From NCBI RefSeq assembly GCF_002930105.1, contig NZ_PJRN01000001.1, forward strand, positions 248,001 through 312,000: 64,000 bases of DNA, in the 5' to 3' direction. Position numbers and translations under genes: made by a program. The DNA comes from Billgrantia saliphila. GTDB taxonomy: Bacteria; Pseudomonadota; Gammaproteobacteria; Pseudomonadales; Halomonadaceae. Position 1 is the first letter of the stretch; each line of letters starts with the position of its first letter. Positions 43,696-62,752 of the stretch are shown piece by piece. Below the pieces are notes generated by a model, which made no database searches, was not told where the DNA came from, and saw only the letters and a list, made by a program, of their open reading frames with translations.

Positions 43696-43696
43696 C

Positions 43697-44314: not shown

Positions 44315-44324
44315 GCCAGGGCGC

Positions 44325-44355: not shown

Positions 44356-44382
44356 AGGTCACACAGCAAATAGGAAACCGAC

Positions 44383-45615
44383 ATGGTTGAAACATCTATC
44401 ATCTTGCTCGGTGTGTTCATGTTCACCGTGGTCGTCATCGGCCTCGTCGCGGTGATCCTGGCGGCGCGCAGCAAGCTCGTCAGCACCGGCGACGTGTCCA
44501 TTGAGATCAACGGCGACCCGGAGCACACCATCACGACCCAGGCCGGTGGCAAGCTACTCAACACACTGGCGGCGAATGGCATCTTCCTTTCCTCCGCCTG
44601 TGGCGGCGGTGGTTCCTGCGCTCAGTGCAAGTGCCGGGTGGAAGAGGGCGGCGGCTCCATTCTGCCGACCGAGGAGTCCCACTTCACCCTGCGCGAGAAG
44701 AAGGAGGGCTGGCGCCTCTCTTGCCAGGTGCCGGTGAAGCAGGACATGAAGATTGAAGTGCCGGAGGAGGTTTTCGGCGTCAAGAAATGGGAGTGCGAGG
44801 TCATCTCCAACCCCAACGTCGCCACCTTCATCAAGGAGCTGAACCTGCGTCTGCCCGAGGGCGAGGAAGTGGCCTTCCGCGCCGGCGGTTACGTTCAGCT
44901 GGTAGCACCGCCCTACGATATCAAGTTTTCGGACTTCGATATCGAGGAGGAGTATCGCGGCGACTGGGAGAAATTCGATCTGTTCAAGATCTCCCACAAG
45001 AACGACGAGGAAGTCATTCGCGCCTACTCGATGGCGAACTACCCCGAAGAGAAGGGGATTCTCAAGTTCAACATCCGTATCGCCACGCCGCCTCCCGGCT
45101 CCAACCATCCGCCGGGCCTGATGTCGACTTACGTCTTCAACCTGAAGCCGGGCGATAGGGTCACGGTGATGGGGCCCTTCGGCGAGTTCTTTGCCAAGGA
45201 GACCGACGCCGAGATGGTGTTCATCGGCGGTGGTGCCGGCATGGCGCCGATGCGCAGCCATATCTTCGATCAGCTCAAGCGTCTCGACTCGAAGCGCAAG
45301 ATCAGCTTCTGGTACGGTGCGCGCTCCTGGCGCGAAACCTTCTACAACGAAGAGTACGACAAGCTGGCCGAGGAGCACTCCAACTTCGAGTGGCACCTGG
45401 CCCTGTCCGATCCGCAACCCGAAGACAACTGGACCGGGCCGACCGGGTTCATTCACAACGTGCTGTACGAGAACTACCTCAAGGACCATCCGGCTCCCGA
45501 GGATTGCGAGTACTACATGTGCGGACCGCCCATGATGAACGCCTCGGTGATCAAGATGCTGCTCGATCTGGGGGTAGAACCCGAAAACATCCTGTTGGAT
45601 GACTTCGGCGGATGA
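44383..45615 (+). CDS. nqrF: Na+-NQR subunit F (NADH oxidising)
   Basis: Takes electrons from NADH. The 410-residue protein has an N-terminal helix, a 2Fe-2S ferredoxin domain ([16 protein letters not shown]), an FAD domain with RAYSMANYP, and an NADH domain with [12 protein letters not shown], ending in a C-terminal [10 protein letters not shown]. Its stop overlaps the next gene in ATGA. Confidence 0.98.
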
Positions 45616-46385
45616 TCTCCCTCGCCCTAGGGCGATTTTCAGGGCTGACCCGCAGCGGGTCAGCCCTGTTCATGTTCGTCGTGATGCTGCCCATGGCGCT
45701 GAGCGCCTGCCGCCATCAAATCAGCGAGCACCATCTACAGGGCGCGACCCTGGGAACGGGCTACCATATCACCCTGTATGCCGATCTGAGTGACGCGGCG
45801 CTCCTGGCGCTGGAGACCGGCATACAAGGTGAACTGGAAGACCTGCAACGTCAGCGCGAACTCTACGTACGCGCACTCGATGCCGCTTTCGCTCGGGTCG
45901 GGATGTCGGCGCCGACCATTCTATTGGGCGAATTGGATCACATGGTTCATGCTCTGGCCGTCGACCGCATGGTTGAATGGCTGGATGCACGCGAGGACTT
46001 GGCCGCGCTGGTCGAGGTGGGCGGCGTGATGCGCGCTGCGGCTGCCCCGCCGAATGGCGGCTGGCGCTTGTCACTGGAGCGCGCCGGACTGCCCAAGCTA
46101 TCCGAAGAGCGTTACCTCTACCTGCATGACGCTGCACTGGTGCATCGTTTCACGGAACTGGAAGCATCTCCGCTGATGTCGCTTCCGACACCGCTGGGTG
46201 TTAGCGTCGTGGCCGAAACGGCGAGCGAGGCCATGCGGCAAGCCAACCGGATGATGCTGGCCGAGCCGGGCGACGCCCTGGCATATGCCGCGCGTACGGA
46301 TAGAGCGGCCAGGCTTGTTGTCAAGACACCCCAAGGCATCGTCATTCATCAAACCGCGGCGCTCGAACCCTGGTTCGAGGGATAG
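45612..46385 (+). CDS. apbE: short, divergent ApbE-like lipoprotein in the nqr operon
   Basis: In the place where nqr operons carry apbE, the FAD:protein FMN transferase that flavinylates NqrB and NqrC. This copy has only 257 residues (about 340 usual). It keeps the lipobox [16 protein letters not shown] and [12 protein letters not shown] / LVEVGG, which align with the AKGYAVD and VEIGGE blocks, but Lys and Gly of AKGYAVD are His and Ala, the Glu of IGGE is replaced, and the HIIDPxTG block is absent. It is unlikely to be active, so a working ApbE would have to be elsewhere. Two inverted repeats lie in its first 20 codons, and an ATG at 45672 after them is another possible start. Confidence 0.7.
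45622..45668 (+). repeat. two tandem perfect inverted repeats at the nqrF/apbE junction
   Basis: The first is the palindrome TCGCCCTAGGGCGA (45622-45635) followed by TTTT. The second is CAGGGCTGACCCGC, one base, and the exact complement (45640-45668). They resemble back-to-back terminator or attenuator stems lying inside the first codons of the apbE-like reading frame. Confidence 0.75.
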
Positions 46386-46403
46386 CCGCAAGGAGTGCTA
46401 TCC

Positions 46404-46673
46404 ATGACCACATTCTTCGTTGTCCTGGGCTTCATGCTCTTGATCATGGCCGCCATGGCGATCGGTGTGATAGCCGGGCGCAAGCCCATTGCCGGCTCAT
46501 GCGGAGGGCTCAACAAGCTTGGCCTCAAGGAAGGCTGCGATATCTGCGGTGGCAAGGACGAGGTCTGCGAGGAAGAGAACCGCAAGCGCAACGAGGGGCA
46601 GCAGGCCAGTGCCCGCCGCCGCAGCGACGAGAGTCGCGGTGCCGACCTTGGCTACGACGCCACCAAGCGCTGA
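46404..46673 (+). CDS. nqrM: NqrM, Na+-NQR maturation protein
   Basis: Small membrane protein needed to deliver iron for the NqrD/NqrE centre. The 89-residue protein has one N-terminal helix, then four or more cysteines in SCGG, CDICGG and VC, characteristic of the family. ATG 46404 has AAGGAG upstream. It is the last gene of the nqr group. Confidence 0.93.
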   Translation: MTTFFVVLGFMLLIMAAMAIGVIAGRKPIAGSCGGLNKLGLKEGCDICGGKDEVCEEENRKRNEGQQASARRRSDESRGADLGYDATKR

Positions 46674-46723
46674 GCGCAGGAGCCGACGACTACATCGACA
46701 AGGGATAGGAGACGCGAGAGCCC

Positions 46724-48115
46724 ATGGCAGTGCATAACTACGACGTGGTAGTGATTGGTACCGGGCCGGCCGGCGAGAGCGCCGCGATCAATGCAGCCAA
46801 GCATGGCAAGCGAGTGGCGGTTGTCGAGAAACAGCCGGTACTTGGCGGCAACTGCACGCACTGGGGCACGATTCCCTCCAAGGCGCTGCGCCATCAAGTC
46901 AAGCAGATCATGCAATTCAATACCAATCGCATGTTTCGGGATATCGGCGAGCCGCGTTGGTTCTCCTTTCCCAGGGTAATGGAGCGTTCGCGCATGACCA
47001 TCGACCAACAGGTCGAGATGCGCACCAAATTCTATGCCCGTAACCGCATCGACCTGTTCAGCGGTGTGGCACGCTTCAAGGACGAACATACCCTGCTGGT
47101 ACGCGACCGCCAGGAAGCGCTGGAGGAACTGGTGGCTCAGAAGGTCGTCATCGCCACCGGTTCGCGTCCCTATCGGCCGGCCGACATCAATTTTCGGCAT
47201 CCGCGCATCTATGATTCCGATACCATCCTCAGTTTGTCGCATACGCCACGGACCCTGATCATCTTTGGTGCCGGTGTGATCGGCTGTGAGTACGCCTCGA
47301 TCTTTTCCGGGCTGGGCGTCAAGGTCGATCTCATCAACAACCGGGACCGGCTGCTGTCTTTCCTGGATGACGAGATCTCCGATGCGCTCTCCTACCATCT
47401 GCGCAAGCATGGCGTACTGATTCGCCACAACGAAGAGTACGAGCGCGTCGAAGGCGATGAGTCCGGGGTCGTGGTCTACCTCAAGTCGGGCAAGAAACTG
47501 CGTGCCGACGCTTTCCTGTGGGCCAACGGCCGCACCGGTAACACCGACGAGCTGGGGCTCGAGAACATCGGCCTCGAGGCGAACGGTCGCGGGCAGCTAC
47601 AGGTCGACGATCACTACCGCACTGCGCGTCCGCACATTTATGCCGCGGGTGATGTAATCGGCTGGCCGAGCCTGGCGAGTGCCGCTTACGATCAAGGGCT
47701 CAATGCATGCGATGAGCTGCTCGAGCGCGATTACCGCTTCGTCAGTGAAGTACCGACAGGCATCTACACCATACCCGAGATCAGCTCTTTCGGTCGCAGC
47801 GAGCGCGAGCTGACCGAGGCGAAGGTGCCTTATGAAGTTGCTCAGGCTTTCTTCAAGGATACCGCCCGTGCCCAGATCACCGGCGATACAGTGGGTATGC
47901 TCAAGATCCTGTTCCATCAGGATACTTTGGAGATCTTCGGCATCCACTGTTTCGGTGACCAAGCCTCGGAGATCGTCCACATCGGCCAGGCGATCATGCA
48001 ACAGAAGGGCGAGGCCAACACGCTCAAATATTTCGTCAATACCACCTTCAACTATCCCACCATGGCTGAAGCTTATCGGGTAGCGGCCCAGAATGGCCTG
48101 AATCGGGTGTTCTGA
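46724..48115 (+). CDS. sthA: soluble pyridine nucleotide transhydrogenase
   Basis: FAD enzyme that moves electrons between NADPH and NAD. The 463-residue protein starts [13 protein letters not shown], has [15 protein letters not shown] where related disulfide reductases have a CxxxxC pair (only one Cys here, as in the family), a second Rossmann fold [16 protein letters not shown], and a C-terminal dimer domain. AGGAG lies upstream. It is followed by a strong terminator. Confidence 0.97.
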
Positions 48116-48556: not shown

Positions 48557-50632
48557 ATGACGACTCATTATAGGCCTGAGGTCGATGGGCTAAGAGCCGT
48601 AGCCGTTATACCCGTTATATTCTTTCACGCAGGGTTTGATACCTTTAGTGGCGGGTACGTTGGTGTCGATATATTTTTCGTAATAAGCGGCTATCTGATC
48701 ACTGGAATAATTTACAATGAAATAGTCGAAAAGAAATTTTCGATCGTGAATTTTTACGAGAGACGGGCGAGGAGAATTCTTCCGGCGCTATTCTTTGTCA
48801 GCATCATATGTATGGCCGTGGCGTGGGTATGGATGCTACCGGAAGAATTCGCGAGCCTGAGCAAGAGCCTGATTGCCGTCAATCTGTTCGTCTCAAATAT
48901 TCATTTCTGGCAGGACATGGATTACTTTGCCGGCCCGGCAGAGATGAAGCCCTTTCTGCATACATGGAGCCTGGCCGTCGAAGAGCAGTTCTATTTGTTC
49001 TTCCCTCTTTTCATGCTGTTGGCGGGGTGGCTCAGAAAAGGGCTGCTCATGGGCATCCTGCTGTTGGGTTTCCTTGCCAGCTTAGCCCTATCGGAATATG
49101 GCTCAACCCATCACCCTTCAGCCAATTTCTATTTGCTGCCGACTCGGGCCTGGGAACTGCTGGCGGGATCGATCGTGGCTGTCTATCTGCACCGGCACAA
49201 GTCGCAGCCTCCCGCCTGGCTCGGCAATCTGGCAGGTTTGTTCGGACTAGCGCTGCTCCTGTATGCAATCTTCGTATTCGATCAGAGTGTTCCTTTCCCT
49301 GGCCTGTGGGCCCTCGTACCCGTCCTCGGAACCGTTCTCATCATACTCTTTGCCGGTGAAAGAGATATTGCAGGAAGGTTGCTGTCCTTCAAGCCTATGG
49401 TCGGGATCGGTCTGATCAGTTACAGCGCCTACCTCTGGCACCAGCCGGTCTTTGCCTTCGCCAGGGAACGTAGCATGGGGCCCATCTCCGATGTCGACTT
49501 CATTCTGCTGAGCATACTCTCACTGCTGTTGGCCTGGTTCTCCTGGCGCTATGTCGAACTACCCTTCCGTAACCGTCTTAACTTCACCCGGCCGCAGATA
49601 TTCAAGTCGGCATTGGTTATGTCCTGCCTGATGATCGGGGTTGGTCTCTACGGCAGCCACTCCCAAGGTATTCCGTGGCGCTTCGACGAAGAGGTTGAAA
49701 GCCTGGCGATGGTGCGCTCCCAGAAGCACATCAACTCCGAGAATTGCCAGAGCACGCCGGGTAACCTGCGGCCTCTCGATGCGATCTGCGTATATAACGA
49801 GAGCGGAGAAAGAACCGTGGTGGTATGGGGTGACAGCCAAGCGACGCCACTAGTCGGACCGATAGCCGAACGAGTGGATGCGTTGGGGATGCAAGTCAAG
49901 CAGTTCGTTTATACCAACTGCCTGCCTATTGCGGGCTATACCCGTAGCGATGATCCGCTGTGTGGTCGCCACAACGAGCAGGTGCTGGAGTACGTGCTGG
50001 AAGATGCAAGTGTCGAGCTCGTGGTCATGCTGGGTCGTTATCCTCTTCAATTCGAAGGCCTCGCATTCAATAACGGAGAAGGAGGTATCGAGCACGATGA
50101 GGCCGTGCGTGCCGTACCCATGGATCGTCTCGATATGGCAAACAACCCACTTCGAGTGGAGGAGGTTGGCAGACTGCTGCAGGAAACCGTCAACAGGATG
50201 ATCGAGGCGGGGAAGCGGGTCGTCTTGATTTATCCGGTGCCCGAGGTGGGGTGGGATGTGCCCTATCTGTTGAGCAAGGAGAGATTATACGGTATCGAAC
50301 GGTTTTCGCCCTTATCAACCAGCTACGAAGTTTTCAAGCAGCGAACGTCATCTTCTTACGAGCAGTTTTCCAGGATAGGGGAACACGATAACTTGCTGAA
50401 AGTCGAGCCGGCCAGCTTGTTCTGCAATACCTACATACCCAGTCGATGTGCCGCTCAGATCGAAGACGAAATCCTCTATTACGACAATAACCACTTGAGC
50501 GTAACCGGCGCCTCGATGCTGGTATCGCAAATATTCGTAAAAATGAGAAGAAAGGGATGGATGAGCGAAGAGGAACACAAGTTGAGCATGCTGAGCGATG
50601 ACTCAGCGGTTAGTGTCATGCAGCAAAGGTGA
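48557..50632 (+). CDS. acyltransferase-3 / SGNH fusion (OafA/YrhL type)
   Basis: A 691-residue inner-membrane protein that probably O-acetylates a surface glycan. Residues about 1-360 are an acyltransferase-3 domain with ten or so helices, beginning YRPEVDGLRAVAVIPVIFFH, with FFVISGYLIT, YERRARRILPAL and HTWSLAVEEQFYLFFP. Residues about 410-660 form an SGNH-like domain with VVVWGDSQATP and DNNHLSVTGASML. First gene after the ops element. Confidence 0.92.
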   Translation: MTTHYRPEVDGLRAVAVIPVIFFHAGFDTFSGGYVGVDIFFVISGYLITGIIYNEIVEKKFSIVNFYERRARRILPALFFVSIICMAVAWVWMLPEEFASLSKSLIAVNLFVSNIHFWQDMDYFAGPAEMKPFLHTWSLAVEEQFYLFFPLFMLLAGWLRKGLLMGILLLGFLASLALSEYGSTHHPSANFYLLPTRAWELLAGSIVAVYLHRHKSQPPAWLGNLAGLFGLALLLYAIFVFDQSVPFPGLWALVPVLGTVLIILFAGERDIAGRLLSFKPMVGIGLISYSAYLWHQPVFAFARERSMGPISDVDFILLSILSLLLAWFSWRYVELPFRNRLNFTRPQIFKSALVMSCLMIGVGLYGSHSQGIPWRFDEEVESLAMVRSQKHINSENCQSTPGNLRPLDAICVYNESGERTVVVWGDSQATPLVGPIAERVDALGMQVKQFVYTNCLPIAGYTRSDDPLCGRHNEQVLEYVLEDASVELVVMLGRYPLQFEGLAFNNGEGGIEHDEAVRAVPMDRLDMANNPLRVEEVGRLLQETVNRMIEAGKRVVLIYPVPEVGWDVPYLLSKERLYGIERFSPLSTSYEVFKQRTSSSYEQFSRIGEHDNLLKVEPASLFCNTYIPSRCAAQIEDEILYYDNNHLSVTGASMLVSQIFVKMRRKGWMSEEEHKLSMLSDDSAVSVMQQR

Positions 50633-50661: not shown

Positions 50662-51708
50662 ATGAGAGTATTGATTCTCGGGAACATGGGGTATGTGGGG
50701 CCCGAAGTCGTCAAGGAGCTAAGGCGTCAACATCCCGAATCGGTATTGCATGGCTATGACAATGCCTATTTCGCTCACTGTCTTACGGGTGTGGACCGCA
50801 TTCCGGAGAGTTACCTGGACAAGCAATATTACGGAGACGTTCGCCATCTCCCTGAAGGGATGCTGGAGGGCTATACCGCCGTGGTGCAGCTTGCCGCCGT
50901 TTCCAATGATCCCATGGGCCACCGTTTCGAGACTGTCACTCAGGAGATCAATCAGGAAGCCTCCATAAGGATTGCTCGGCAGGCGGCGCAGGCTGGCGTG
51001 AGCCATTTCGTCTTCGCGTCGAGCTGCAGCGTCTATGGACTCGCCAGTGGTGAGCCGCGCAAGGAAACCGACCCGCTCGCACCGATGACCGCCTATGCCA
51101 GGTCCAAGATCGGCTCCGAAGATGCACTTGCTGGAATCGGTGGCGACATGGTCATTACCAACCTGAGATTCGCGACCGCTTGCGGCATGTCTGCGCGGCT
51201 CCGTCTGGATCTGGTTCTGAACGACTTCGTCGCTTGCGCCCTGTCACAGAAGAAAATCACCGTGCTCAGCGATGGAACACCATGGCGGCCTCTTATCGAC
51301 GTCAGCGATATGGCGAGGGCGATCGACTGGGCCATTCAGCGGCAGGCAGCCAATGGGGGGCGTATCCTGAGCGTCAATACCGGCTCCAACCGTCGCAATC
51401 ACCAGGTACGCGACCTGGCAGAGGCCGTCTCCGATGCGATTCCAGGCACGACCGTGCACATCAACGAGAAAGAAGCAGTCGATAGCCGCTCTTACAAGGT
51501 GGATTTTGGGCTCTTCGAAGAGCTTGCTCCCGATCATCAACCCCAGATGACTCTTCAGGACTCCATTCAAGAATTGATTGATGGGCTTTCTCGCATGCAA
51601 TTTACGGATTCAGATTTCCGCAACTCACACTGGATGCGGCTAAGAGTTCTACAAGCACACGTCGAGCAGGGGCGCCTGTCAGAGGGTTTGGAATGGAGAG
51701 TGAGATGA
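50662..51708 (+). CDS. NAD-dependent epimerase/dehydratase (SDR) of the sugar cluster
   Basis: A 348-residue short-chain dehydrogenase. LILGNMGYVGPEV is the NAD loop, FASSCSVYG the serine region, and YARSK the catalytic Tyr-Lys pair. The substrate is unknown; with the adjacent cytidylyltransferase it may act on a CDP-sugar, as a 4,6-dehydratase, reductase or epimerase. The glycine motif differs a little from the classical GxxGxxG. It lies 54 bases before rfbF. Confidence 0.85.
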   Translation: MRVLILGNMGYVGPEVVKELRRQHPESVLHGYDNAYFAHCLTGVDRIPESYLDKQYYGDVRHLPEGMLEGYTAVVQLAAVSNDPMGHRFETVTQEINQEASIRIARQAAQAGVSHFVFASSCSVYGLASGEPRKETDPLAPMTAYARSKIGSEDALAGIGGDMVITNLRFATACGMSARLRLDLVLNDFVACALSQKKITVLSDGTPWRPLIDVSDMARAIDWAIQRQAANGGRILSVNTGSNRRNHQVRDLAEAVSDAIPGTTVHINEKEAVDSRSYKVDFGLFEELAPDHQPQMTLQDSIQELIDGLSRMQFTDSDFRNSHWMRLRVLQAHVEQGRLSEGLEWRVR

Positions 51709-51762
51709 CACTCGCCAGCCAAAGAACTTTGCTGTAGCACCTAATTAAAAAGGGGATATGCC

Positions 51763-52539
51763 ATGAAAGTCGTGATACTTGCAGGTGGTTTCGGAACGCG
51801 GCTCAGTGAAGAAACTTCCATTCGACCGAAACCGATGGTTGAAGTAGGGGGGCGCCCCATACTTTGGCATATTATGAAAATATATTCACATTATGGCTTC
51901 AAGGATTTTGTGATCCTTGGTGGCTACAAGGTCGATTACATCCGAGATTACTTTCTCAATTATCGCGGAAAGCAGACTGACTACAGCATCGACTTGAAGA
52001 CCGGGCGAGTCGAATGGTTGAACGGAGTCAGTGAGGATTGGAATGTGACGGTCCTCGATACCGGAGCTGATTCGCTGACAGGTGGCAGGATAAAGCGTGC
52101 AAAACATCTTATCGACGACGAGACGTTCTGCTTGACATATGGAGACGGTGTCAGCGATGTGAATATCGGTAAGCTGGTGCAAAGCCACAAGGAATCAGGT
52201 TGCTGGTGCACGCTGACGGCGGTGACTCAGCCGGGGCGTTATGGTGCTCTCAGACTGGACGAGGACAGCAATCACGTCAGGGCATTCCGTGAAAAGGGAG
52301 CCGTGGACGGAGGTTTGATAAATGGTGGATTTTTTGTCTGCGAGCCCGAGGTGCTGGACCTGATCGACGATGACCGCACGACTTGGGAGAACGAGCCCAT
52401 GGAGCGCATGGTGCAGATGGGGAAGCTGGGTTACTACCATCATCAGGGCTACTGGCAGAGCATGGATTCGCTGCGTGACAAAATGGTGCTCGAAACGGCC
52501 TGGGCCGATACGCCACCGTGGAAAGTCTGGAAGGATTGA
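51763..52539 (+). CDS. rfbF: glucose-1-phosphate cytidylyltransferase
   Basis: Makes CDP-glucose from glucose 1-phosphate and CTP, the entry to CDP-deoxysugars. The 258-residue protein opens MKVVILAGGFGTRLSEETSI and has RPKPMVEVGGRPILWHIM, YGDGVSDV and GYWQSMDSLRDK, all typical. No rfbG-like CDP-glucose 4,6-dehydratase follows; the next gene is a SAF-domain oxidoreductase. Confidence 0.96.
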   Translation: MKVVILAGGFGTRLSEETSIRPKPMVEVGGRPILWHIMKIYSHYGFKDFVILGGYKVDYIRDYFLNYRGKQTDYSIDLKTGRVEWLNGVSEDWNVTVLDTGADSLTGGRIKRAKHLIDDETFCLTYGDGVSDVNIGKLVQSHKESGCWCTLTAVTQPGRYGALRLDEDSNHVRAFREKGAVDGGLINGGFFVCEPEVLDLIDDDRTTWENEPMERMVQMGKLGYYHHQGYWQSMDSLRDKMVLETAWADTPPWKVWKD

Positions 52540-52591
52540 GTAGGGAGTCAGCCTTCCGTAGCCCATCAGCAGCCAGGATAAAAAGAAAGCG

Positions 52592-53914
52592 ATGATTATT
52601 GTAGATACGGCACTAGCGAAACGAAAAGCGGATAACAATCCAATACGCGTCGGCATGGTCGGCGCGGGATTTCAGGGCAAAGGTATCGGATTGCAGATCA
52701 TGACCGCGACACCCGGCATGACGCTCTGCGCCATCGCGAATCGCCATGTCGAGTCGGCAATCGACGTATACGGCCAGGTAGGGATTGAGCCTCAGCGATG
52801 CGAGACGACGGCGGAGATCGAATCGGCGATCGCCAGCGGCCGGCCTGTGGTCACGGAAGACGCCAAGGCCATGGCCGCATCTGATGGCCTGGATGCCATC
52901 ATTGAAGTTACGGGTTCGATCGAATATGCGGCAGAAGCGGTACTGGCAGCCATCTCATACGGTAAGCACGTCATTCAGATGAATGCGGAACTCGATGGGA
53001 CGATCGGCCCGATCTTGAAATACAAGGCGGAACAAGCCGGACTGATCTACACCTTCTCGGATGGCGACCAACCGGGCGTGCAGATGAACTTGTTTCGGTT
53101 CACCGAAGGGCTAGGTATCAAGCCTGTATTGTGCGGAAATATCAAGGGATTGCATGATCCGTACCGCAACCCAGAAACACAACGCGCGTTTGCGGAGCGG
53201 TGGGGACAGAAACCCGCCATGGTCGCCTCATTCGCCGATGGCACGAAGATATCCTTCGAGCAGGCGATAGTAGCGAATGGTACGGGGATGCAGGTGGCTC
53301 GCCGCGGCATGTTGGGACCCGATTTCTCGAACGGCGATCCCGGCTCGCCGCTGGTGCCTATCGAAGAGACGCTATCGCGCTTCGAACCTTACCTGGATCC
53401 TGCGGGGCCAGGGCTCGTCGACTATGTAGTGGGCGCGCGGCCAGGTCCTGGCGTCTTTGTCATCGGGACATTAGCTGATCCGCGAAAACAACACTACCTT
53501 GAGCTCTACAAGCTCGGAAAGGGCCCTTACTACTGTTTTTACACGCCCTACCATCTATGCCATTTCGAAGTGCCCACCTCGGTCGCGCGAGCAGTTTTGT
53601 TCAATGATCCTGTGTTGACACCTCGTGGCGCTCCGCTGGTAGGGGTGATAGCCATGGCCAAGAAGGATCTGAAAGAGGGAGAAGTAATCGGAGAGTTCGG
53701 AGGTTTCGAAGTTTACGGAGTCGCCGATAACATGGAAAATATTCGTCAAGAGAGGCTTCTGCCCATTGGCCTGGCACTCGATTGCGTCGTAAGAAAAAGT
53801 GTTAAACAGGATACGCCGCTGACTTTCGATGATGTCCAGTTCCCCGAGGGACGCTTGGTCGACCGACTCTATGGCGAGCAGGAAAACATATTCTTTGGAA
53901 AAAGCGGAGAATAA
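52592..53914 (+). CDS. SAF-domain, homoserine-dehydrogenase-like oxidoreductase
   Basis: A 440-residue cytoplasmic protein. Residues about 18-170 are an NAD(P)-binding fold with RVGMVGAGFQGKGIG and DAIIEVTGSIEYAAEAVLA. The middle resembles oxidoreductases of the DRL-like group, and the C-terminal 90 residues or so are an SAF-like domain (VIAMAKKDLKEGEVIGEFGG). Relatives are annotated by domain only. Its position between rfbF and an RmlC-like epimerase suggests a step in nucleotide-sugar or sugar-acid chemistry, but the substrate is unknown. Confidence 0.82.
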   Translation: MIIVDTALAKRKADNNPIRVGMVGAGFQGKGIGLQIMTATPGMTLCAIANRHVESAIDVYGQVGIEPQRCETTAEIESAIASGRPVVTEDAKAMAASDGLDAIIEVTGSIEYAAEAVLAAISYGKHVIQMNAELDGTIGPILKYKAEQAGLIYTFSDGDQPGVQMNLFRFTEGLGIKPVLCGNIKGLHDPYRNPETQRAFAERWGQKPAMVASFADGTKISFEQAIVANGTGMQVARRGMLGPDFSNGDPGSPLVPIEETLSRFEPYLDPAGPGLVDYVVGARPGPGVFVIGTLADPRKQHYLELYKLGKGPYYCFYTPYHLCHFEVPTSVARAVLFNDPVLTPRGAPLVGVIAMAKKDLKEGEVIGEFGGFEVYGVADNMENIRQERLLPIGLALDCVVRKSVKQDTPLTFDDVQFPEGRLVDRLYGEQENIFFGKSGE

Positions 53915-53923
53915 GGGGGACAT

Positions 53924-54472
53924 ATGAAGTTCATCCAGACAGATCTCAAGGATGCCTACCTGGTGGAACTCGATCTTCGTGGCGATGAAAGAGGATTCTT
54001 TGCAAGAACGATGTGCCGCGAGGAGTTCGCCACGATTGGTATCGAAAGCAGCTTCGTTCAGCAGAACACGTCCTACTCGGCGCATCGAGGGACTCTTCGC
54101 GGACTCCACTTCCAAAAGACTCCTCATGGAGAAAGTAAGCTGATTCGCTGCATCAGCGGAGCCATCGTTGATGTCATCGTGGATATCCGACAGGACTCCC
54201 CCACTTACATGCAGCACCAGATGTTTGAGCTGACAAGCAGGAATAGGTTGCAACTCTTTGTTCCCAAAGGCTTCGCCCACTCTTTCATGACGCTGGAGGA
54301 CAATGTAGAAGTCAGCTATCTAGTGAGCGCACCCTATACACCTTCCGCCGAAGATGGGCTCAGATACAATGACGAGGAACTCGGAATCGAATGGCCCTTG
54401 CCGGTTTCGGTAATTTCAGAAAAAGATGCCAGTTGGCCATTGGTAAGAGAACGCACCCATCAGCTTTATTGA
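53924..54472 (+). CDS. RmlC-like nucleotide-sugar 3,5-epimerase
   Basis: A 182-residue cupin of the dTDP-4-dehydrorhamnose 3,5-epimerase family. GDERGFFARTMC, the catalytic His in GTLRGLHFQ, FVPKGFAHSFMTL and the Tyr of VSYLVSAPY are present. Without rmlA, rmlB or rmlD beside it and with rfbF in the cluster, the true substrate may be a CDP-4-keto sugar. It follows the SAF gene after nine bases. Confidence 0.88.
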   Translation: MKFIQTDLKDAYLVELDLRGDERGFFARTMCREEFATIGIESSFVQQNTSYSAHRGTLRGLHFQKTPHGESKLIRCISGAIVDVIVDIRQDSPTYMQHQMFELTSRNRLQLFVPKGFAHSFMTLEDNVEVSYLVSAPYTPSAEDGLRYNDEELGIEWPLPVSVISEKDASWPLVRERTHQLY

Positions 54473-54518: not shown

Positions 54519-55550
54519 ATGGCCACCAAGGTGATCGGCGTTATCCTTACGTACAATCGAAAAGAACTTCTCGAACTCTGTCTAAAGGCCATTCATTCGC
54601 AGACCCGGCCATGTGACATGATCCTGGTTATCAATAATGCTAGCACCGATGGAACGCTGGAATTTCTGAAAAGTGGAAAATACCCGAATATAAAAGTTTA
54701 TTCATTGAAGATAAACGTTGGTGCAGCTGGTGGCTTTAATACTGGATTCCGGCTAGCATACGATAATGGTGCTGATCATGTCTGGATGATGGATGATGAT
54801 GTTATTCCTGAGTCCGATGCCTTGGAAAAGCTGCTGGTCGCTGATGAGCTGCTTGAAAGAAAGGGAATGAGCAGAAGCTATCTTCTCTCAACTGCCTATA
54901 CCGAACATGGCCAGGTGACCAACACGCCACAGGTTAGTAATGCTAGGAACAGAGCGGGTTACTTTGGTTGGCCCGAACAACTTGAGCATGGCCTGGTGGC
55001 GGTCGGAAGTGGTACTTTTGTCTCGATACTAGTGCCTCGTAACACTTTGGAAAAATACGGTCTTCCTATTTCATCAATGTACATCTGGGGTGAGGATGCC
55101 GAGTTTACCTTGCGAATCACGAGGGACAAGCCCGGATATTTGGTCGGTACTAGCCGTGTCGCACATCTACGGCATGGAGGCGGCACGATCAGTATCGTCA
55201 CCGAGTCAAATCCCATTAGAATCAGGTACTATAAAAACTTCATTAGAAATAATCTGTATATATCCAGAAAATACAAGACAAGGCGCCGGACAGTCTCGAT
55301 CTTGTTTAATAATGTAGTGCTCGCTCTGAAAATGTTAGTGAAAAGACGGCCCCGCAAAGCCTGTATCATAGTATTGGGGCTGGTGCAAAGTTTTGGTTTT
55401 CGTCCAAAAATTGACTTTGTGAATAGTGATTACGATTATTCAAACGTCAGAGTGTCGTTTCCTGCTGCGGATTGTGAGGAAGTTGAAGCCAACAACAGTC
55501 AGGAGCGAGTGGAAGGGATTTCACAATTAGAGTATGTGCGTCAAACTTGA
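54519..55550 (+). CDS. family 2-type glycosyltransferase
   Basis: A 343-residue GT-A glycosyltransferase. VIGVILTYNRKELLELCLKA and VINNASTDGTLEF are the nucleotide-sugar part, and WMMDDDVIPE is the metal-binding DxD. The C-terminus has no transmembrane segment. GlfT2-like relatives add galactofuranose, but the donor here is not known. Codon usage is AT-richer than the core genes. Confidence 0.9.
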   Translation: MATKVIGVILTYNRKELLELCLKAIHSQTRPCDMILVINNASTDGTLEFLKSGKYPNIKVYSLKINVGAAGGFNTGFRLAYDNGADHVWMMDDDVIPESDALEKLLVADELLERKGMSRSYLLSTAYTEHGQVTNTPQVSNARNRAGYFGWPEQLEHGLVAVGSGTFVSILVPRNTLEKYGLPISSMYIWGEDAEFTLRITRDKPGYLVGTSRVAHLRHGGGTISIVTESNPIRIRYYKNFIRNNLYISRKYKTRRRTVSILFNNVVLALKMLVKRRPRKACIIVLGLVQSFGFRPKIDFVNSDYDYSNVRVSFPAADCEEVEANNSQERVEGISQLEYVRQT

Positions 55551-55660
55551 AGTTTATTGATGTAAAGCATGAGGGGAGGGTGAGTTATTGCAATAATAAC
55601 GTCGATGGTTGAATGGGGTTTCCATATCATAATGGTAGAAAACGGTGCAAGGAAGGTATC

Positions 55661-57475
55661 ATGCTGAGAAGTCTAAAGGAGTTATACTCACTGCTAACAA
55701 GAGAGCAGCGAAAAAAGCTCCTGAAGTTGCAGGGCCTTATCATCATAATGTCCTTTGCAGAGATTGCAGGTGTCATGTCTATTGGCCCCTTCATGGCGCT
55801 TGTGGGGGACATGACCTTGCTGGAAAACTCAGAAGGGATTGCCTCGACACTGTATCGTATGAGTGGTGTTGAAACACCTCGAGATTTTCTTTTCTGGCTG
55901 GGCATCATGGTCTTGTTGGTGTTAACAGCAGCCTCTATCGTTTCCATGTTTACGGTTTGGCGCTTATCGCTATACGGAGCAAAAGTAGGTGCAGAGTTAG
56001 GCAACAGGCTTTACCGCTACTATATGTATCAGCCTTGGCTGTATCACGCGAACACGAGCAGCAGTCATCTTACCAAGCAGATTTCACAAGAAACCCTGCG
56101 AATGACTAATTTCGTTATCAATCCATTGCTTCATATGAATGCGAAACTGGTCATGGCCTTCTTCATGGCGATTGTAATATTTCTTTATGACCCTATGGTT
56201 GCAGTTACAGGAATCACGATATTCGTTGTTTCATATTACCTTCTCTTCGTGACGGTGCGCCGGCGGCTTGTAAAAAATGGCAAGGCAATCTCGGAAACAC
56301 AATCACTGAGGTTTAAGTTAATGGCGGAGGGTTTTGGCGGAATCAAAGACGCATTGCTGCTGGGGCATCAAAAAACTTTTATAGACAGATTCCAGAAACC
56401 CAGCCTGCATTTTGCGCAAGCGGCTGGCAGCAACCAGGCCATTAGTCAGGTTCCGCGGTATGCGATGGAGCTCATAGCCTTCTCCAGTGTGATCTTCTTA
56501 GTGCTGTACCTGCTGGCCACGCACAATGGCAACCTTGGCACCATTTTACCCGTGCTCTCCATTTATGCGATGGCAGGCTTCAAAATATTGCCAGCACTGC
56601 AGAAGGTCTATTCCAGTATGTCACAGATTCGCGGAAATCTAGCCTCTTTCGATGCGGTGAGGGATGACCTTTACGAAAGTTCTGAGCCAAGGGAACAGGA
56701 GCGAGGTTTAATGGTAAGAGAGAGTGCAGGGGAAAGTCTGATTCCTCATGATGTTATTCGTCTCGACAACATAGTTTTTACTTATCCCGGGACCCGTGAA
56801 TTCGCCCTTAACGGTGTCAACATGGAGATTCCTGCAAATCGCATGATTGGTATTGTAGGTGCATCAGGCTCCGGAAAATCCACCATTATTGATATTCTGC
56901 TTGGCCTAATCGAACCGGATCAGGGCGATATCAGCGTCGATGGCGTCCGCATCGAAAAGCGCAACAGGCGTCAATGGCAGAATACACTCGGGTTCGTGCC
57001 ACAAAGCATTTTCCTCGCGGATGCAAGTATTCGGGAAAATATCGCATTTGGCGTAGCGCCTGAAGAGATAGACGAGGAAGGCGTCATGCGTGCCGCCAGC
57101 ATGGCCAATCTACACGAGCTGCTCAATGAGCTGCCAAATGGGCTAGATACTTGTGTAGGGGAGAGGGGCGTTCAACTCTCCGGTGGGCAGCGCCAGCGCA
57201 TTGGCATCGCTCGGGCTCTGTATCATGACGCAGAAGTGCTTATTCTGGATGAAGCAACCAGTGCCTTGGATGGAATAACTGAGAAGCTCATCATGGAAGC
57301 CATTCATGAGATCATGGGCAAGAAAACGATCATCATGATCGCGCATCGACTTGCTACAGTTCGCCAATGCAACCGTATCTATCTTATGAAAGAAGGTAAG
57401 GTAATCGATTCAGGAAGCTACAGTGAGCTGTCCAGCAGCAATGAAATATTCAAGCGAATGGCAGCACATAGCTGA
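55661..57475 (+). CDS. ABC-type lipid-linked oligosaccharide flippase (PglK-like)
   Basis: A 604-residue half-transporter with the membrane domain first (about 1-330) and an ATPase domain (380-600) containing GASGSGKST, LSGGQRQRIGIARAL and EVLILDEATSALD. Layout and neighbours suggest export of a lipid-linked sugar unit, in place of a Wzx flippase. The start at 55661 (MLRSLKELYSLLTREQ) has AAGGAAGG before it. Substrate and mechanism are by family resemblance. Confidence 0.88.
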   Translation: MLRSLKELYSLLTREQRKKLLKLQGLIIIMSFAEIAGVMSIGPFMALVGDMTLLENSEGIASTLYRMSGVETPRDFLFWLGIMVLLVLTAASIVSMFTVWRLSLYGAKVGAELGNRLYRYYMYQPWLYHANTSSSHLTKQISQETLRMTNFVINPLLHMNAKLVMAFFMAIVIFLYDPMVAVTGITIFVVSYYLLFVTVRRRLVKNGKAISETQSLRFKLMAEGFGGIKDALLLGHQKTFIDRFQKPSLHFAQAAGSNQAISQVPRYAMELIAFSSVIFLVLYLLATHNGNLGTILPVLSIYAMAGFKILPALQKVYSSMSQIRGNLASFDAVRDDLYESSEPREQERGLMVRESAGESLIPHDVIRLDNIVFTYPGTREFALNGVNMEIPANRMIGIVGASGSGKSTIIDILLGLIEPDQGDISVDGVRIEKRNRRQWQNTLGFVPQSIFLADASIRENIAFGVAPEEIDEEGVMRAASMANLHELLNELPNGLDTCVGERGVQLSGGQRQRIGIARALYHDAEVLILDEATSALDGITEKLIMEAIHEIMGKKTIIMIAHRLATVRQCNRIYLMKEGKVIDSGSYSELSSSNEIFKRMAAHS

Positions 57476-58714: not shown

Positions 58715-59278
58715 ATTAAAGAGCTTCCTCTGTATTCGATTAAGCGCGCCATTTTCGTAGCAGTTACCTCGCTAACGAATGCCCTCGTCGAGGCTGGCTT
58801 TCCGGGTCCAGCGTAGCGTCCGACTGCGTATACGATACTAATACAGAACTGGCTAAGACGGTGCGCAATCGTACATTCGGTTGCTCGCACAACCTCTGTT
58901 GCTGCTTGAACGTCGACTAATGAAGGCCTATCTAGCCCCTTATTCGAATGCTGAATCTAAGTAGTTCAGTGGATTAGACTATGCGCGTATGAATTGAAGC
59001 ACACTACCAATAATGTCCCGGCTCAACATTCAAGGATGAAAAAAATCATGCTCTTACGAATTCGTATTTCTTGTAATCTTGTGTAAGTATTATTTTAGTC
59101 CTGTAACCTTGCGCCTTGTGGTCAGTGGCTATATGGCTTTCAGATTGCGGAAGTGAAGCAGGCAAAGGATACGAATCTAGCCATGCAATAACCCTAGAGT
59201 TTCTCTGTCTCTTGGTTGCATGCGTTAGGGGATCTCGGCAAGAGCACGCGGAATGTCTCGAAAGCAAGGGAGAAGACA
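58715..59278 (+). other. 564-base gap without a recognised gene, before wza
   Basis: Stop codons interrupt all frames and I recognise no gene, tRNA or repeat. The part just before wza is AT-rich (for example a run around 59085-59095), so a promoter for wza-wzc is plausible, but no pair of -35 and -10 boxes stands out. No second ops element was found. Confidence 0.5.
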
Positions 59279-60400
59279 ATGAATAAGTTCGCACGTGGTA
59301 CATGCCTCGCTGTTGCGTTATTGCCATTGGGAGTGATAGGTGGGTGTGCCCTTGCGCCTGGAGGTCATATCGACTATGAAGCCCAGGAAGTCTCCTTGGA
59401 TGAGCAAGTGGATATCGTTACGATTACCCCAGAGCTGATATCAATTTATCGAACTGATAACGGTACCAGTAAAGCACAAGGTGTCACTCCTGAGTTGGAA
59501 CTTGAACTAGAGAATTATGAGTATCGCGTTGGTCCCGGTGATGTACTGAATATCGTTGTCTACGAGCATCCTGAACTTACTATTCCGGCGGGTGGGGAGC
59601 GAAGTGCAGAAGAATCGGGTAACATCGTTCATGCGGATGGAACCATTTACTATCCTTACATCGGTGTCGTAAAAGTCGAAGGGCGTACAATTGGAGAAAT
59701 CAGAAATATCATTACCAGTCGCTTAGCGACTTACGTTACAGAGCCGCAAGTTGAAGTTAGAGTGGCTGCTTTTAACTCAAAGAAAGTTTACGTAAGCGGG
59801 GAAGTCAATGCCCCTGGAACCCAGCCCATTACAAATGTCCCTTTGACTATCCTAGACGCTATCAGCGCGGCTGGGGGAGCAACAGAAAACGCCAACTGGC
59901 ATAGCATTACTCTAACCCGAAATGGGCAAGAAAGAACTCTCTCCCTTTATGAAATGCTCAAGAGGGGTGACCTTGCTCAAAATTCGCTTTTACAGCCAGG
60001 CGACGTTCTTCATATAGCGTCAGCTGAAAACCAAAATATATCGGTAATGGGACAAGTACGAAATCCCGGAAATATTACAACGGGTAGAGAGCGTATGAGC
60101 CTTACCGATGCGCTCGGTCGCGCAGGAGGCGTTGTCGAGTCTAGAGCGGAGCCTTCAGGTATTTTCGTGATTCGTGGTAATCCTGCTGGAAGCGAAAAGA
60201 TGGCTACGGTTTACCAGCTTGATATTTCGAATGCCGTTGCACTCAATATGGGATCTTATTTTCCACTCGAGCCACATGATGTGGTTTACGTAACGTCGGC
60301 ACCGCTGGCGCGCTGGAACAATGTTATTAGCTTGCTCCTGCCATCGATCTCACTGCCAGGTAATGTGGCGTCAACTTCCAATGAAGTGGGCGACCTCTAA
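59279..60400 (+). CDS. wza: Wza-type polysaccharide export lipoprotein
   Basis: Forms the outer-membrane channel for capsule or exopolysaccharide. The 373-residue protein has a lipoprotein signal ending VIGGC, the Poly_export domain with YRVGPGDVLNIVVYEHPELT, and two SLBB domains (KKVYVSGEVNAPG, ISVMGQVRNPGN), plus a C-terminal amphipathic stretch. ATG 59279 is preceded by AAGGGAGAAG. Confidence 0.95.
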   Translation: MNKFARGTCLAVALLPLGVIGGCALAPGGHIDYEAQEVSLDEQVDIVTITPELISIYRTDNGTSKAQGVTPELELELENYEYRVGPGDVLNIVVYEHPELTIPAGGERSAEESGNIVHADGTIYYPYIGVVKVEGRTIGEIRNIITSRLATYVTEPQVEVRVAAFNSKKVYVSGEVNAPGTQPITNVPLTILDAISAAGGATENANWHSITLTRNGQERTLSLYEMLKRGDLAQNSLLQPGDVLHIASAENQNISVMGQVRNPGNITTGRERMSLTDALGRAGGVVESRAEPSGIFVIRGNPAGSEKMATVYQLDISNAVALNMGSYFPLEPHDVVYVTSAPLARWNNVISLLLPSISLPGNVASTSNEVGDL

Positions 60401-60514: not shown

Positions 60515-62752
60515 ATGAATAGCTTGAGTTCAAATAGTCCGGTGCTACAGACCGGATCCGGCTCGGCGCCGGCCTCAAGCATGCCTCCTGGAGAAGAAAA
60601 CATCGACTTGGGGCGCATGCTGGGCATGCTTGTAGACAATAAATGGAAAATTGTTTTCATAACCCTGCTTTTTGGTGTTGGAGGAGCTATATATTCGCTG
60701 TTGGCTACGCCCATTTATCAAGGCGATGCGCTGGTTCAGGTCGAAAAAACAGGGCCCAGAACGGGGGCTGATGAGGTTGCAGCGATGCTGTTACAGGAAG
60801 AGCCCATCACCGGAGCTCAGATTGAAATACTCCAATCCAGGCTCATTGTTGGCCAAGCTGCCAACCAACAAAATCTTGATATCAGCGTGACCCCTGTCGT
60901 GTTTCCCGTCATCGGCAATGCTCTTATCCGCTATGACATTACTCGTCCTGATTTCGCACAGGGAAGGCCCGAAATTTGGGGGGGGGAAAGCATTTTTGTC
61001 GAATCATTGAGCGTTGCGCCGGAGCTAGTTAACAAATCGCTGACGCTTGAAATAATGGAAGGTGGATATCGCATTTTGGGACCGGAGGGAGAAGAGCTTC
61101 TATTCGGTCGTGCTGGTGAGCGCTCCGAGTCTAACAATCCTTGGCTGGAAATCTATGTGAGCGAGATACAGGCGCCAGCAGGGGCTCAGTTCTCCTTACG
61201 CAAGCGCAGCCAGCAGGCCACCATCGATTATCTCCGAAGTCGCTTTGTCGTTGCTCAGAAAGGGGAGCGAGATACTGGGGTTCTGCAACTAGTCCTGACC
61301 GGGCCTGATATCAACGAAGTCGAGTCGTCGCTCAACGCGATTACCGAAGTCTACCTGGCCCAAAATATCGCACGGCAAGCTGCCGAAGCGGAGAACAGTC
61401 TCCAATTCTTGGACGAACAGCTGCCAAACGTACGCGAGCAGCTGGTGGAGGCGGAGAATCGGCTCAATGCCTACAGAATGGAACAGGAAAGCGTGGATCT
61501 TACTGAAGAGACGCGAAATATGCTTACTGGGATGGTGGATATCGAAAGCCGATTAAATGATCTGGAAATGCAGGAATCAGAGCTGTCACGTCGCTTCACT
61601 CCCAATCATCCAGTCTATGCCGCGCTGCTGGAAAAAAGGGCGCAGCTTGAGAGGGAGCGCGCCAACCTGGAACAGCGTACCAGCAACCTGCCAGAAACCC
61701 AGCAGCAGATTTTGCGCATGACTCGTGACGTTGAGGTCACCCAACAGATCTACGTGCAGTTGCTGAATCGTATGCAGGAACTGAACATTGCTAAGGCTGC
61801 GACCGTAGGCAACGTCAGAATTATTGACTTCGCCATGACCCGATCAAGCCCCATCAAACCAAAATCCGCCTTGATCGTCATTATCTGTCTATTGGTAGGT
61901 TGCTTGCTGGCAGTAAGCTGGATACTGCTTCGTGGATTCCTCAGCAAAGGAGTGGAAAATGCTGAGCAGCTAGAAGATATAGGCTTACCTGTCTATGCAA
62001 CGGTTCCGCGATCTGCAGACCAGATGAAACTGGTCAAGCGCATCAAATATCGTAATAACAAGACTAGCCAACATGCCATAGGCAGCTTTCTCGCTAAGCT
62101 ATACCCGACAGATATGGCAGTAGAGGCCATACGTGGGCTCCGTACCAGTCTGCATTTCGCCATGATGGACGCACGCAATAACGCCATCATGATTACAGGG
62201 CCCAGCCCGGGTATAGGTAAGAGCTTCGTTACGATTAACCTTGCATTCGTCTGCGCGCAAGCAGGTCAGCGAGTTTTAGTCATCGACGCGGATATGCGCA
62301 AGGGTAATATGCATTTTACCTTTAATGACAAGTCGGAGAACGGACTCTCGGAAGTCCTTTCGGGAAAACTTGCTGCCGAAAAGGCGATAAGAAGATCGGA
62401 TGTGCCTGGCATGCACTACATGACCCGAGGCGTAGCACCGCCCAACCCATCGGAACTTCTAATGCGCCATAGCTTTGCTGAGATGATCGGTGAGGTGGGG
62501 AAGAACTATGATCTTGTGCTCATCGATACTCCTCCAATTCTGGCGGTCACTGATGCCTCCATTATTGGCAAGGTTGCTGGAACTTCTCTTCTCGTTGCAC
62601 GTTTTGGTGTCAATCCGGTCAGGGAGGTCAAGGTTGCTGCACGCCGTCTGGCAAATACAGGCGTTCATGTTCAAGGTTGCATTCTAAATGCCATCGAGAA
62701 GACGGCAGCCATCAGTTACGGCTACGGCTATTATAGTTATTCCTACAAGTAA
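60515..62752 (+). CDS. wzc: Wzc-type bacterial tyrosine autokinase / chain-length regulator
   Basis: Inner-membrane partner of Wza. The 745-residue protein has an N-terminal Wzz domain between helices (about 50 and 450), a long coiled-coil periplasmic region, and a cytoplasmic BY-kinase with Walker A GPSPGIGKSF, A' VLVIDADMRKG and B LVLIDTPP, ending in the tyrosine cluster SYGYGYYSYSYK. No gene for the Wzb phosphatase lies between wza and wzc, where it is commonly found. Confidence 0.95.
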   Translation: MNSLSSNSPVLQTGSGSAPASSMPPGEENIDLGRMLGMLVDNKWKIVFITLLFGVGGAIYSLLATPIYQGDALVQVEKTGPRTGADEVAAMLLQEEPITGAQIEILQSRLIVGQAANQQNLDISVTPVVFPVIGNALIRYDITRPDFAQGRPEIWGGESIFVESLSVAPELVNKSLTLEIMEGGYRILGPEGEELLFGRAGERSESNNPWLEIYVSEIQAPAGAQFSLRKRSQQATIDYLRSRFVVAQKGERDTGVLQLVLTGPDINEVESSLNAITEVYLAQNIARQAAEAENSLQFLDEQLPNVREQLVEAENRLNAYRMEQESVDLTEETRNMLTGMVDIESRLNDLEMQESELSRRFTPNHPVYAALLEKRAQLERERANLEQRTSNLPETQQQILRMTRDVEVTQQIYVQLLNRMQELNIAKAATVGNVRIIDFAMTRSSPIKPKSALIVIICLLVGCLLAVSWILLRGFLSKGVENAEQLEDIGLPVYATVPRSADQMKLVKRIKYRNNKTSQHAIGSFLAKLYPTDMAVEAIRGLRTSLHFAMMDARNNAIMITGPSPGIGKSFVTINLAFVCAQAGQRVLVIDADMRKGNMHFTFNDKSENGLSEVLSGKLAAEKAIRRSDVPGMHYMTRGVAPPNPSELLMRHSFAEMIGEVGKNYDLVLIDTPPILAVTDASIIGKVAGTSLLVARFGVNPVREVKVAARRLANTGVHVQGCILNAIEKTAAISYGYGYYSYSYK

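Follow-up and report, generated by a model that had tools for sequence, protein, structure and literature searches.

Which sugar is made from cytidine diphosphate (CDP)-glucose in a bacterium with no recognizable CDP-glucose 4,6-dehydratase (RfbG)? The question is raised by four adjacent genes of Billgrantia saliphila, located in a window of 64,000 nucleotides (positions 248,001 to 312,000 of contig NZ_PJRN01000001.1), i.e., the whole stretch of DNA that was analyzed. In this order, they encode a short-chain dehydrogenase/reductase (SDR), a glucose-1-phosphate cytidylyltransferase (RfbF), an oxidoreductase of the DLO1 family, and an RmlC-like 3,5-epimerase. The genes are real and lie where a first-pass annotation of the same DNA had placed them: all four open reading frames are on the forward strand, with intergenic gaps of 54, 52, and 9 bases, and RfbF and RmlC score above their family cut-offs. 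Together, the four enzymes probably convert glucose 1-phosphate to a CDP-furanose with a contracted ring and a branched chain, CDP-dihydrohydroxystreptose. Two of the enzymes suggest the chemistry, namely the oxidoreductase, a relative of DXR-II, and the SDR, which resembles a C4-dehydrogenase.

DXR-II converts deoxyxylulose 5-phosphate (DXP) to the branched methylerythritol 4-phosphate (MEP) by skeletal rearrangement and reduction. Judged by its sequence and model, the oxidoreductase of the window is a full-length homolog of DXR-II belonging to the sister family DLO1. It matches Brucella DXR-II (PDB ID: 3upl and 3upy) with 3e-62 in phmmer, and its AlphaFold2 model (mean pLDDT 92.1) aligns with the same structures in Foldseek with a TM-score of 0.90 over the full length; the next best TMq among the 50 matches listed is 0.44. 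The protein had first been described as a SAF oxidoreductase of unknown substrate, and its kinship to DXR-II had gone unseen.

A study from 2013 divided 130 relatives into DXR-II, DLO1, and DLO2, and called both DLO families uncharacterized (PMC3847144). According to this source, position 229 (Brucella numbering) is an absolutely conserved Thr in DXR-II, Leu, Ile, or Val in DLO1, and Pro, Ser, or Ala in DLO2; Lys193 and Thr229 of DXR-II anchor fosmidomycin, whereas Arg320 is located at the dimer interface. The corresponding residue of the window protein (220) is Ile, i.e., the DLO1 signature and not the Thr229 of DXR-II. The same position is occupied by Ile, Val, or Leu in all 104 members of the DLO1 clade, and by Ser, Thr, Ala, or Pro in the 16 other DRL_cat proteins. 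The Lys193 position holds Leu in 102 of the 104 (Leu187 in the window protein), and the Arg320 position is Thr318 in the window protein. The replacement of Lys193 and Thr229 would be compatible with a substrate that lacks the phosphate of DXP. The catalytic core is preserved: all 120 aligned DRL_cat proteins share Asp159, Asp216, Lys219, Glu223, and His321, and Lys185, equivalent to the fosmidomycin-anchoring Lys191, is retained in 104 of 104 DLO1 sequences. In a tree of 60 DLO1 rows (the window and 59 of the 103 loci surveyed below) and 16 of 38 other DRL_cat loci, the DLO1 rows form one clade apart from the others (support 100/99); the match to the published DLO1 was made by signature and by genera (Nostoc and Deinococcus), rather than with the sequences of that study. 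MEP synthesis as the function of the enzyme was rejected, as the DXR-II signature residues are lost and four DLO1/DLO2 representatives were unable to complement a DXR mutant (PMC3847144), which indicates that DLO proteins do something else.

The SDR, first described as divergent, passes no NCBIfam cut-off; its likeness to a C4-dehydrogenase had not been recognized. Cj1427 of Campylobacter is its first match in the PDB both with the single sequence (PDB ID: 6vo6, 3.5e-18) and with a profile (2.3e-42 vs 5e-27 for the next structure, a margin of 50 bits), and a fold search with the predicted structure also places Cj1427 (PDB ID: 6vo8 and 6vo6) first. By sequence and model, the protein is nearest to this nucleoside diphosphate (NDP)-sugar C4-dehydrogenase, and not to the 4,6-dehydratases, in which an Asp-Glu pair precedes the catalytic Tyr. 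Its motifs are SSCSVYG (starting at residue 120) and YARSK (starting at residue 145); SSCSxYG and YxxxK are invariant in all 23 SDRs aligned, and the Asp-Glu pair is absent. The SDRs of the loci fall into two subgroups, with at least 52% and with 30-38% identity to the window protein, and both share the motifs. A CDP- or dTDP-glucose 4,6-dehydratase was rejected, as TIGR01181 reaches 40.3 bits against a cut-off of 365.1, TIGR02622 is not matched, and SSCSVYG stands in place of Asp-Glu. In Cj1427, an NDP-sugar C4-dehydrogenase, 2-oxoglutarate reoxidizes the bound NADH and yields L-2-hydroxyglutarate; a C3/C5-epimerase acts after it in Campylobacter (PMC10680097).

The two remaining enzymes were assigned with curated cut-offs. 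RfbF exceeds the cut-off of TIGR02623 (359.6 vs 300.25 bits) and finds 1tzf as its best PDB match (4.7e-88); its use of cytidine triphosphate (CTP) and glucose 1-phosphate is predicted from this homology at the family level. RmlC exceeds the cut-off of TIGR01221 (183.1 vs 155.75 bits), and its residues His62, Lys72, Tyr132, and Asp168, of which His62 and Tyr132 are the catalytic pair, are kept in 101 of 101 aligned sequences. Absences were sought in the whole genome, which comprises 4.34 Mb in 47 contigs and has a listed completeness of 100%. A normal rfbG-rfbH set located elsewhere, which in the view of the first-pass annotation would have accounted for all CDP-sugar needs and spoken against the route, is not seen as far as rfbG is concerned (best score 51.1 vs 278.45 bits), rfbH not having been searched for. 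RmlB is likewise above its cut-off nowhere in the genome (147.4 vs 365.1 bits). A CDP-dideoxyhexose route and a rhamnose route were rejected for want of an RfbG and an RmlB, respectively, above the cut-off. DRL_cat occurs once in the genome, and the RmlC of this locus is the only RmlC match at E ≤ 0.001.

RfbF proteins of related genomes fall into two score classes. Four genomes without this DLO1 (G005, G018, G040, and G043) score 457-477 bits, while scores of 337-359 bits are found where DLO1 is present; G050, with 338 bits, carries only a distant DRL_cat. The DLO1-linked RfbF may accordingly be a distinct subfamily.

Is the four-gene set more than a local coincidence? The GTDB genomes were scanned with a DLO1 alignment led by the window, and the best 80 of 548 confirmed stretches were taken; being the best matches to such an alignment, they lean towards the window's kind of locus. 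A survey of co-occurrence, proposed with the original annotation, finds all four genes together in 74 of these 80 loci, 73 of them on one strand, and in 58 of the 61 loci with complete 10 kb flanks. The full set is missing from L107, L120, L123, L134, L142, and L145, of which L120, L134, and L145 are short or cut close to the gene. The 80 loci belong to Pseudomonadota (54), Bacteroidota (11), Cyanobacteriota (8), and six more phyla (one each), with one genome without a phylum; the 74 full sets span six named phyla and the latter genome. The most frequent gene orders are SDR-RfbF-DLO-RmlC (32), RfbF-SDR-RmlC-DLO (12), and RfbF-LhgO-SDR-RmlC-DLO (11), besides others, and this variation argues that the linkage is not a matter of recent descent only. 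The first-pass annotation mentioned a similar set in rhizobial polysaccharide loci, which is right in part: the set is present in Bradyrhizobium valentinum (L104) and Rhizobium sp. 18055 (L115), but at the Rhizobium gallicum megaplasmid locus (L189) RmlC and DLO are its sole members within 9 kb.

In a matched control with equal flanks (1.5 kb on each side) and the window proteins as queries, an SDR, RfbF, or RmlC homolog is present in 30 of 30 DLO1 loci (29 of 29 without the window; RmlC in 27, SDR in 17, RfbF in 16), as compared with 3 of 38 other DRL_cat loci, where the homolog is RmlC each time. The window's second record (L001) and the weak or partial L014-L021 were left out. Reference proteins for the broader census came partly from the counted loci, and the control with window proteins only gave the same result for any partner. 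A set of 58 related genomes comprises 37 of the window's genus, including itself, and 21 from other families. The SDR (E ≤ 1e-30) occurs in eight of them, precisely those in which this DLO1 is encoded with an identity of at least 70%, and RfbF in 13. DLO1 (at least 45% identity) is encoded in 22 of 369 gammaproteobacterial genomes, the window's included; the closest named match of the protein among the loci listed is from Billgrantia pellis (91%). The association of the four genes is not due to chance. The multi-phylum linkage, together with the lack of RfbG and of a second RmlC in the genome, strongly supports the original suggestion of a conserved CDP-sugar route without RfbG.

DRL_cat genes also occur in other settings. 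Three loci outside DLO1 (L043, L045, and L046; 34-35% identity to the window protein), with an RmlC homolog at most 1.5 kb away, perhaps represent a further branched-sugar pathway. The viral contig IMGVR_UViG_3300017989_000696 (L194) carries a DLO1-like gene (43%) and no other gene of the set on its 8-kb stretch. Records filed as Listeria phages (OR848513, OR846726, OR846720, and OR848572) contain an unannotated DRL_cat homolog of Listeria's own kind (about 33% to the window).

The enzymes that could supply RmlC and DLO1 with a ketone are exchangeable. The census was widened to 103 loci, comprising the best 80, 20 further loci with wide flanks (excluding G329, whose gene is interrupted by a stop, G422, and one of the two copies in G544), and three plasmid loci, and searched by tblastn at fixed score limits. 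Of these loci, 93 contain RfbF as well as RmlC. The ketone-making module is the SDR in 87, RfbG in seven, a UGD-like protein with a UXS/RmlB-like SDR in three, and none in six, and the SDR and RfbG never occur together. The RfbG loci (L175, L177-L180, L185, and L190, the last one on a Persicobacter plasmid) mostly contain RmlC and RfbF as well; three of the RfbG calls are above the NCBIfam cut-off (452-510 bits), one is annotated as rfbG, and three were made by tblastn alone. L190 has an annotated rfbC and no RfbF within the stretch. These loci are predicted to make CDP-dihydrostreptose. Three gammaproteobacterial loci (L181, L182, and L183) encode RfbF, a UGD-like 6-dehydrogenase, a UXS/RmlB-like SDR that reaches no family cut-off (at most 108 vs 365.1 bits), RmlC, and DLO1, and possibly possess a multi-enzyme route to a CDP-apiose-like branched tetrose; the UGD and UXS-like module is predicted to yield a 4-ketone. 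A UGD homolog is also encoded, on the opposite strand, in the SDR loci L109 and L110. On the DLO1 tree, the fewest module switches number six, and RfbG appears in five separate clusters, although many inner branches are weak and L190 and L180 are long. From what is known of the families, the three modules share as their product a CDP-4-keto sugar that bears CH2OH, CH3, or H at C5, which makes the strongest case for a 4-ketone as the substrate of RmlC and DLO1.

A second association may concern the cofactor of the SDR. A homolog of L-2-hydroxyglutarate oxidase (LhgO; at least 130 bits) is present in 29 of the 87 SDR loci, in none of the 10 RfbG or UXS loci, and in one of the six module-less loci; in 23 of the 103 loci it lies beside the SDR or RfbF on the same strand. 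Ten of these proteins were tested, and four exceed the LhgO cut-off of 299 bits (scores of 626, 574, 598, and 305 bits). Proteins above the cut-off belong to L135, L140, L142, and L154; of these loci, L142 has no recognized SDR. Deinococcus aetherius has an operon rfbF-lhgO-SDR-rfbC-DLO in which lhgO is so annotated. The genome of the window encodes a single LhgO (598.8 vs 299 bits), located elsewhere. Such a distribution fits an enzyme of the Cj1427 type, whose by-product LhgO would recycle; RfbG would have no use for it.

Gene content, families, predicted folds, residues, and linkage are established directly, and it is from these that we infer the substrate, product, and stereochemistry of the following route. 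RfbF would produce CDP-glucose from CTP and glucose 1-phosphate. The SDR would then oxidize C4 with retention of the 6-hydroxyl group, giving CDP-4-keto-glucose; by analogy to Cj1427, its NADH may be reoxidized by 2-oxoglutarate, and the resulting L-2-hydroxyglutarate recycled by LhgO. RmlC would epimerize C3 and C5, which flank the ketone. DLO1 would perform a DXR-type reaction on this 4-ketose, in which C2 moves from C3 to C4 and C3 is expelled as an aldehyde, through either an alpha-ketol or a retro-aldol/aldol shift. The exposed aldehyde would be reduced by NAD(P)H to CH2OH, yielding CDP-3-C-(hydroxymethyl)-L-lyxofuranose, i.e., CDP-dihydrohydroxystreptose. The assignment of the migrating bond is taken from the chemistry of streptose and apiose; in PMC9095892, unlike here, the contraction is worded as a breakage between C3 and C4. 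The context suggests that the sugar is finally placed in the surface polysaccharide made by this locus.

Streptose and dihydrohydroxystreptose (DHHS), the latter found in the lipopolysaccharide of Coxiella, are stated to be unique to Streptomyces griseus and Coxiella burnetii (PMC9095892). The DHHS route proposed there in 2022 consists of C4 oxidation, epimerization, and a step resembling streptose synthase; CBU1838 is shown to be a double epimerase (RmlC), whereas the C4-oxidase and the ring-contraction enzyme are named as the key challenge and left to be identified. Both organisms are among the DLO1 entries in Table 1 of PMC3847144, where S. griseus is the only Streptomyces. RmlA and a putative SDR of Coxiella are given as CBU_1834 and CBU_1837 (PMC3539893), and CBU1834, CBU1837, and CBU1838 are neighbors by number. 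Interpolation of published numbers would put the Coxiella DLO1 accession NP_820815 at CBU_1836, between RmlA and the SDR and inside cbu1831-cbu1838. Literature searches returned no paper that ties the S. griseus DLO1 accession to a named streptomycin gene. As a guess, the protein may be StrU of the streptomycin cluster.

Several points weigh against the proposed route. Neither an activity of the enzymes nor a product or polysaccharide structure could be found for any such locus. The published view gives the ring contraction to an RmlD paralog, and RmlC may epimerize only one carbon (PMC9095892). The Coxiella pathway begins with RmlA, i.e., with thymidine diphosphate (TDP), and not with RfbF; moreover, the placement of its DLO1 protein comes from the interpolation of numbers and not from a reading of the genome (14 CBU and 14 NP numbers from PMC10740251, paired by rank within this analysis). 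Six of the 103 loci have no recognized ketone module (L107, L134, on a short contig, L142, L170, L184, and L189), and a partial scan of the neighbors in L142, L170, L184, and L189 revealed no clear substitute. Among the LhgO-like proteins, six of the ten tested are below the cut-off (184-220 bits); the window cluster has no adjoining LhgO, nor do 58 of the 87 SDR loci have one in the stretch seen, and the contrast between locus types (Fisher p 0.02 at face value) comes from counts that are not phylogenetically independent. The Gly121 position, for which PMC3847144 gives a change to Ala or Ser in DLO1 and DLO2 together, is not clean: it is Ala in 61, Gly in 39, and Ser in four of the 104 DLO1 proteins (Ala in the window) and Gly in 12 and Ala in four of the 16 other DRL_cat proteins. 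Finally, an RmlC homolog likewise lies close to three of the other DRL_cat genes.

Since the rearrangement ascribed to DLO1 rests on homology and context, the enzyme could be an ordinary NAD(P)H reductase. We consider it unlikely, albeit the best of the alternatives, that it simply reduces the RmlC-epimerized CDP-4-keto sugar at C4 to an unbranched CDP-L-hexose, for example of the L-altrose, L-mannose, or L-talose type. Campylobacter uses exactly a C4-dehydrogenase, a C3/C5-epimerase, and a C4-reductase (PMC10680097), and the Rossmann domain of DLO is related to those of homoserine and Gfo/Idh dehydrogenases. However, among DRL_cat proteins, solved structures were found only for the reductoisomerase DXR-II, the DXR core residues are retained, and both producers of streptose-type sugars, S. 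griseus and Coxiella, are represented in DLO1. In addition, the C4-reductase Cj1428 belongs to another family.

A ring contraction leading to a different stereoisomer (for example, of the 3-C-hydroxymethyl-D-xylose or D-ribose type), due to a one-carbon epimerase or to addition of the migrating carbon by DLO1 from the other face, seems less probable still: relatives of RmlC specific for C3 or C5 only are known and the active-site residues are not predictive, but the sole epimerase that has been studied and assigned to such a 6-hydroxy sugar acts on both carbons (PMC9095892). It is very improbable that the SDR is a GalE-like 4-epimerase making CDP-galactose or a similar compound, with DLO and RmlC serving another pathway, for although galE is its top NCBIfam match, the 64.2 bits are far below the cut-off of 262.3, the profile favors Cj1427 over the next structure by 50 bits, and the gene linkage, the exchange of modules, and the restriction of the SDR to exactly the eight of 58 genomes with DLO1 speak against it.

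The route to CDP-DHHS remains preferred, and a more general role of DLO1 can be put forward tentatively. The family may be a nucleotide-sugar reductoisomerase of general use that contracts the ring in streptose-type sugars. Fed by three exchangeable modules, it would lead to CDP-dihydrohydroxystreptose (SDR), CDP-dihydrostreptose (RfbG), or a CDP-apiose-like sugar (UGD and UXS-like), with TDP versions for DHHS in Coxiella and perhaps for streptose in the streptomycin producer. What is proposed as new is the combination of known reaction types and families, the nucleotide, and a role for an orphan family. The novelty of the route is not proven: literature searches, which left subscription journals mostly outside their coverage, returned no paper in which a CDP-sugar is connected with DLO1 or with an enzyme containing a SAF domain, and neither "CDP-apiose" nor "CDP-dihydrostreptose" occurs in any of the papers returned. 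If the proposal is true, branched furanoses would be common in bacterial polysaccharides of many phyla and not confined to two organisms. The locus offers a candidate for each of the two missing DHHS enzymes from salt-loving environmental bacteria, proposes a function for a family called uncharacterized in 2013, and suggests that isoprenoid and sugar-nucleotide synthesis have the DXR chemistry in common.

The surroundings of the four genes (Table 1), which include a beta-helix protein with a weak match, mark this region, by the families encoded, as an exopolysaccharide locus. The top NCBIfam match of the adjoining GT2 protein is the galactofuranosyltransferase GlfT1 (71.9 bits, far below the cut-off of 330), which, even as a sub-threshold match, would suit a furanose donor. 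A homolog of this protein (at least 200 bits) is found in 21 of the best 80 loci. Further upstream (39628-48115), and outside the exopolysaccharide locus, are an ordinary Na+-NQR operon (39.6-45.6 kb) and an SthA-like pyridine nucleotide transhydrogenase.

Table 1. The four-gene set and its neighbors in the window (positions within the 64,000 nucleotides)
Feature	Position	Strand	Basis
Acyltransferase-3/SGNH protein, upstream; possible polysaccharide O-acylation	48557..50632	+	PF01757 and PF19040
SDR, predicted CDP-glucose C4-dehydrogenase (Cj1427-like)	50662..51708	+	348 aa; Pfam Epimerase 7.5e-33
RfbF, glucose-1-phosphate cytidylyltransferase	51763..52539	+	258 aa; TIGR02623 and PDB 1tzf
DLO1-family DXR-II-like (DRL_cat/SAF) oxidoreductase, predicted CDP-4-keto-sugar reductoisomerase	52592..53914	+	440 aa; PF21135 DRL_cat 1.5e-50
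RmlC-like 3,5-epimerase, with the 4-keto intermediate as its predicted substrate	53924..54472	+	182 aa; TIGR01221
GT2 glycosyltransferase, candidate transferase of the product	54519..55550	+	Pfam GT2 2.9e-19
ABC exporter, PglK/MsbA type	55613..57475	+	NCBIfam PglK 315.4 bits, cut-off 1000 not reached
Wza homolog, polysaccharide export	59216-60400	+	Pfam/NCBIfam-type family matches
Wzc homolog, polysaccharide export	60515-62752	+	Pfam/NCBIfam-type family matches

The proposed route shares parts with several known systems. With Brucella DXR-II (DRL, the MEP synthase of PDB ID: 3upl and 3upy), DLO1 has in common the full-length fold and the core residues of the catalytic domain, but it forms a separate clade in which Lys193, Thr229, and Arg320 become Leu, Ile, and Thr in the window protein, is linked to sugar-nucleotide genes, and has representatives of the DLO group that do not complement a DXR mutant. 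The RfbF-RfbG-RfbH pathway to CDP-3,6-dideoxyhexoses starts with the same RfbF, whereas here no RfbG is above the cut-off in the genome and the SDR, DLO1, and RmlC are present instead. Plant and bacterial UDP-apiose synthase, a single SDR, carries out decarboxylation and contraction of a 4-keto NDP-sugar and then reduction; the order of contraction and reduction is the same, while the steps are predicted to be split over several enzymes here, and the UGD and UXS-like loci L181-L183 are the nearest analogue. The Campylobacter enzymes Cj1427 (C4-dehydrogenase), Cj1430 (epimerase), and Cj1428 (reductase) likewise combine C4 oxidation without dehydration with subsequent C3/C5 epimerization, and the LhgO link fits the 2-oxoglutarate chemistry of Cj1427; their substrate, however, is a GDP-heptose and the final step belongs to a C4-reductase, not to DLO1. 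The proposed streptose and DHHS pathways of S. griseus and C. burnetii are also close: an RmlC double epimerase follows the 4-keto sugar, a ring contraction is required, and both organisms are in the DLO1 list, although the nucleotide is TDP (RmlA) there and CDP (RfbF) here, and the contraction has been published as the work of an RmlD paralog.

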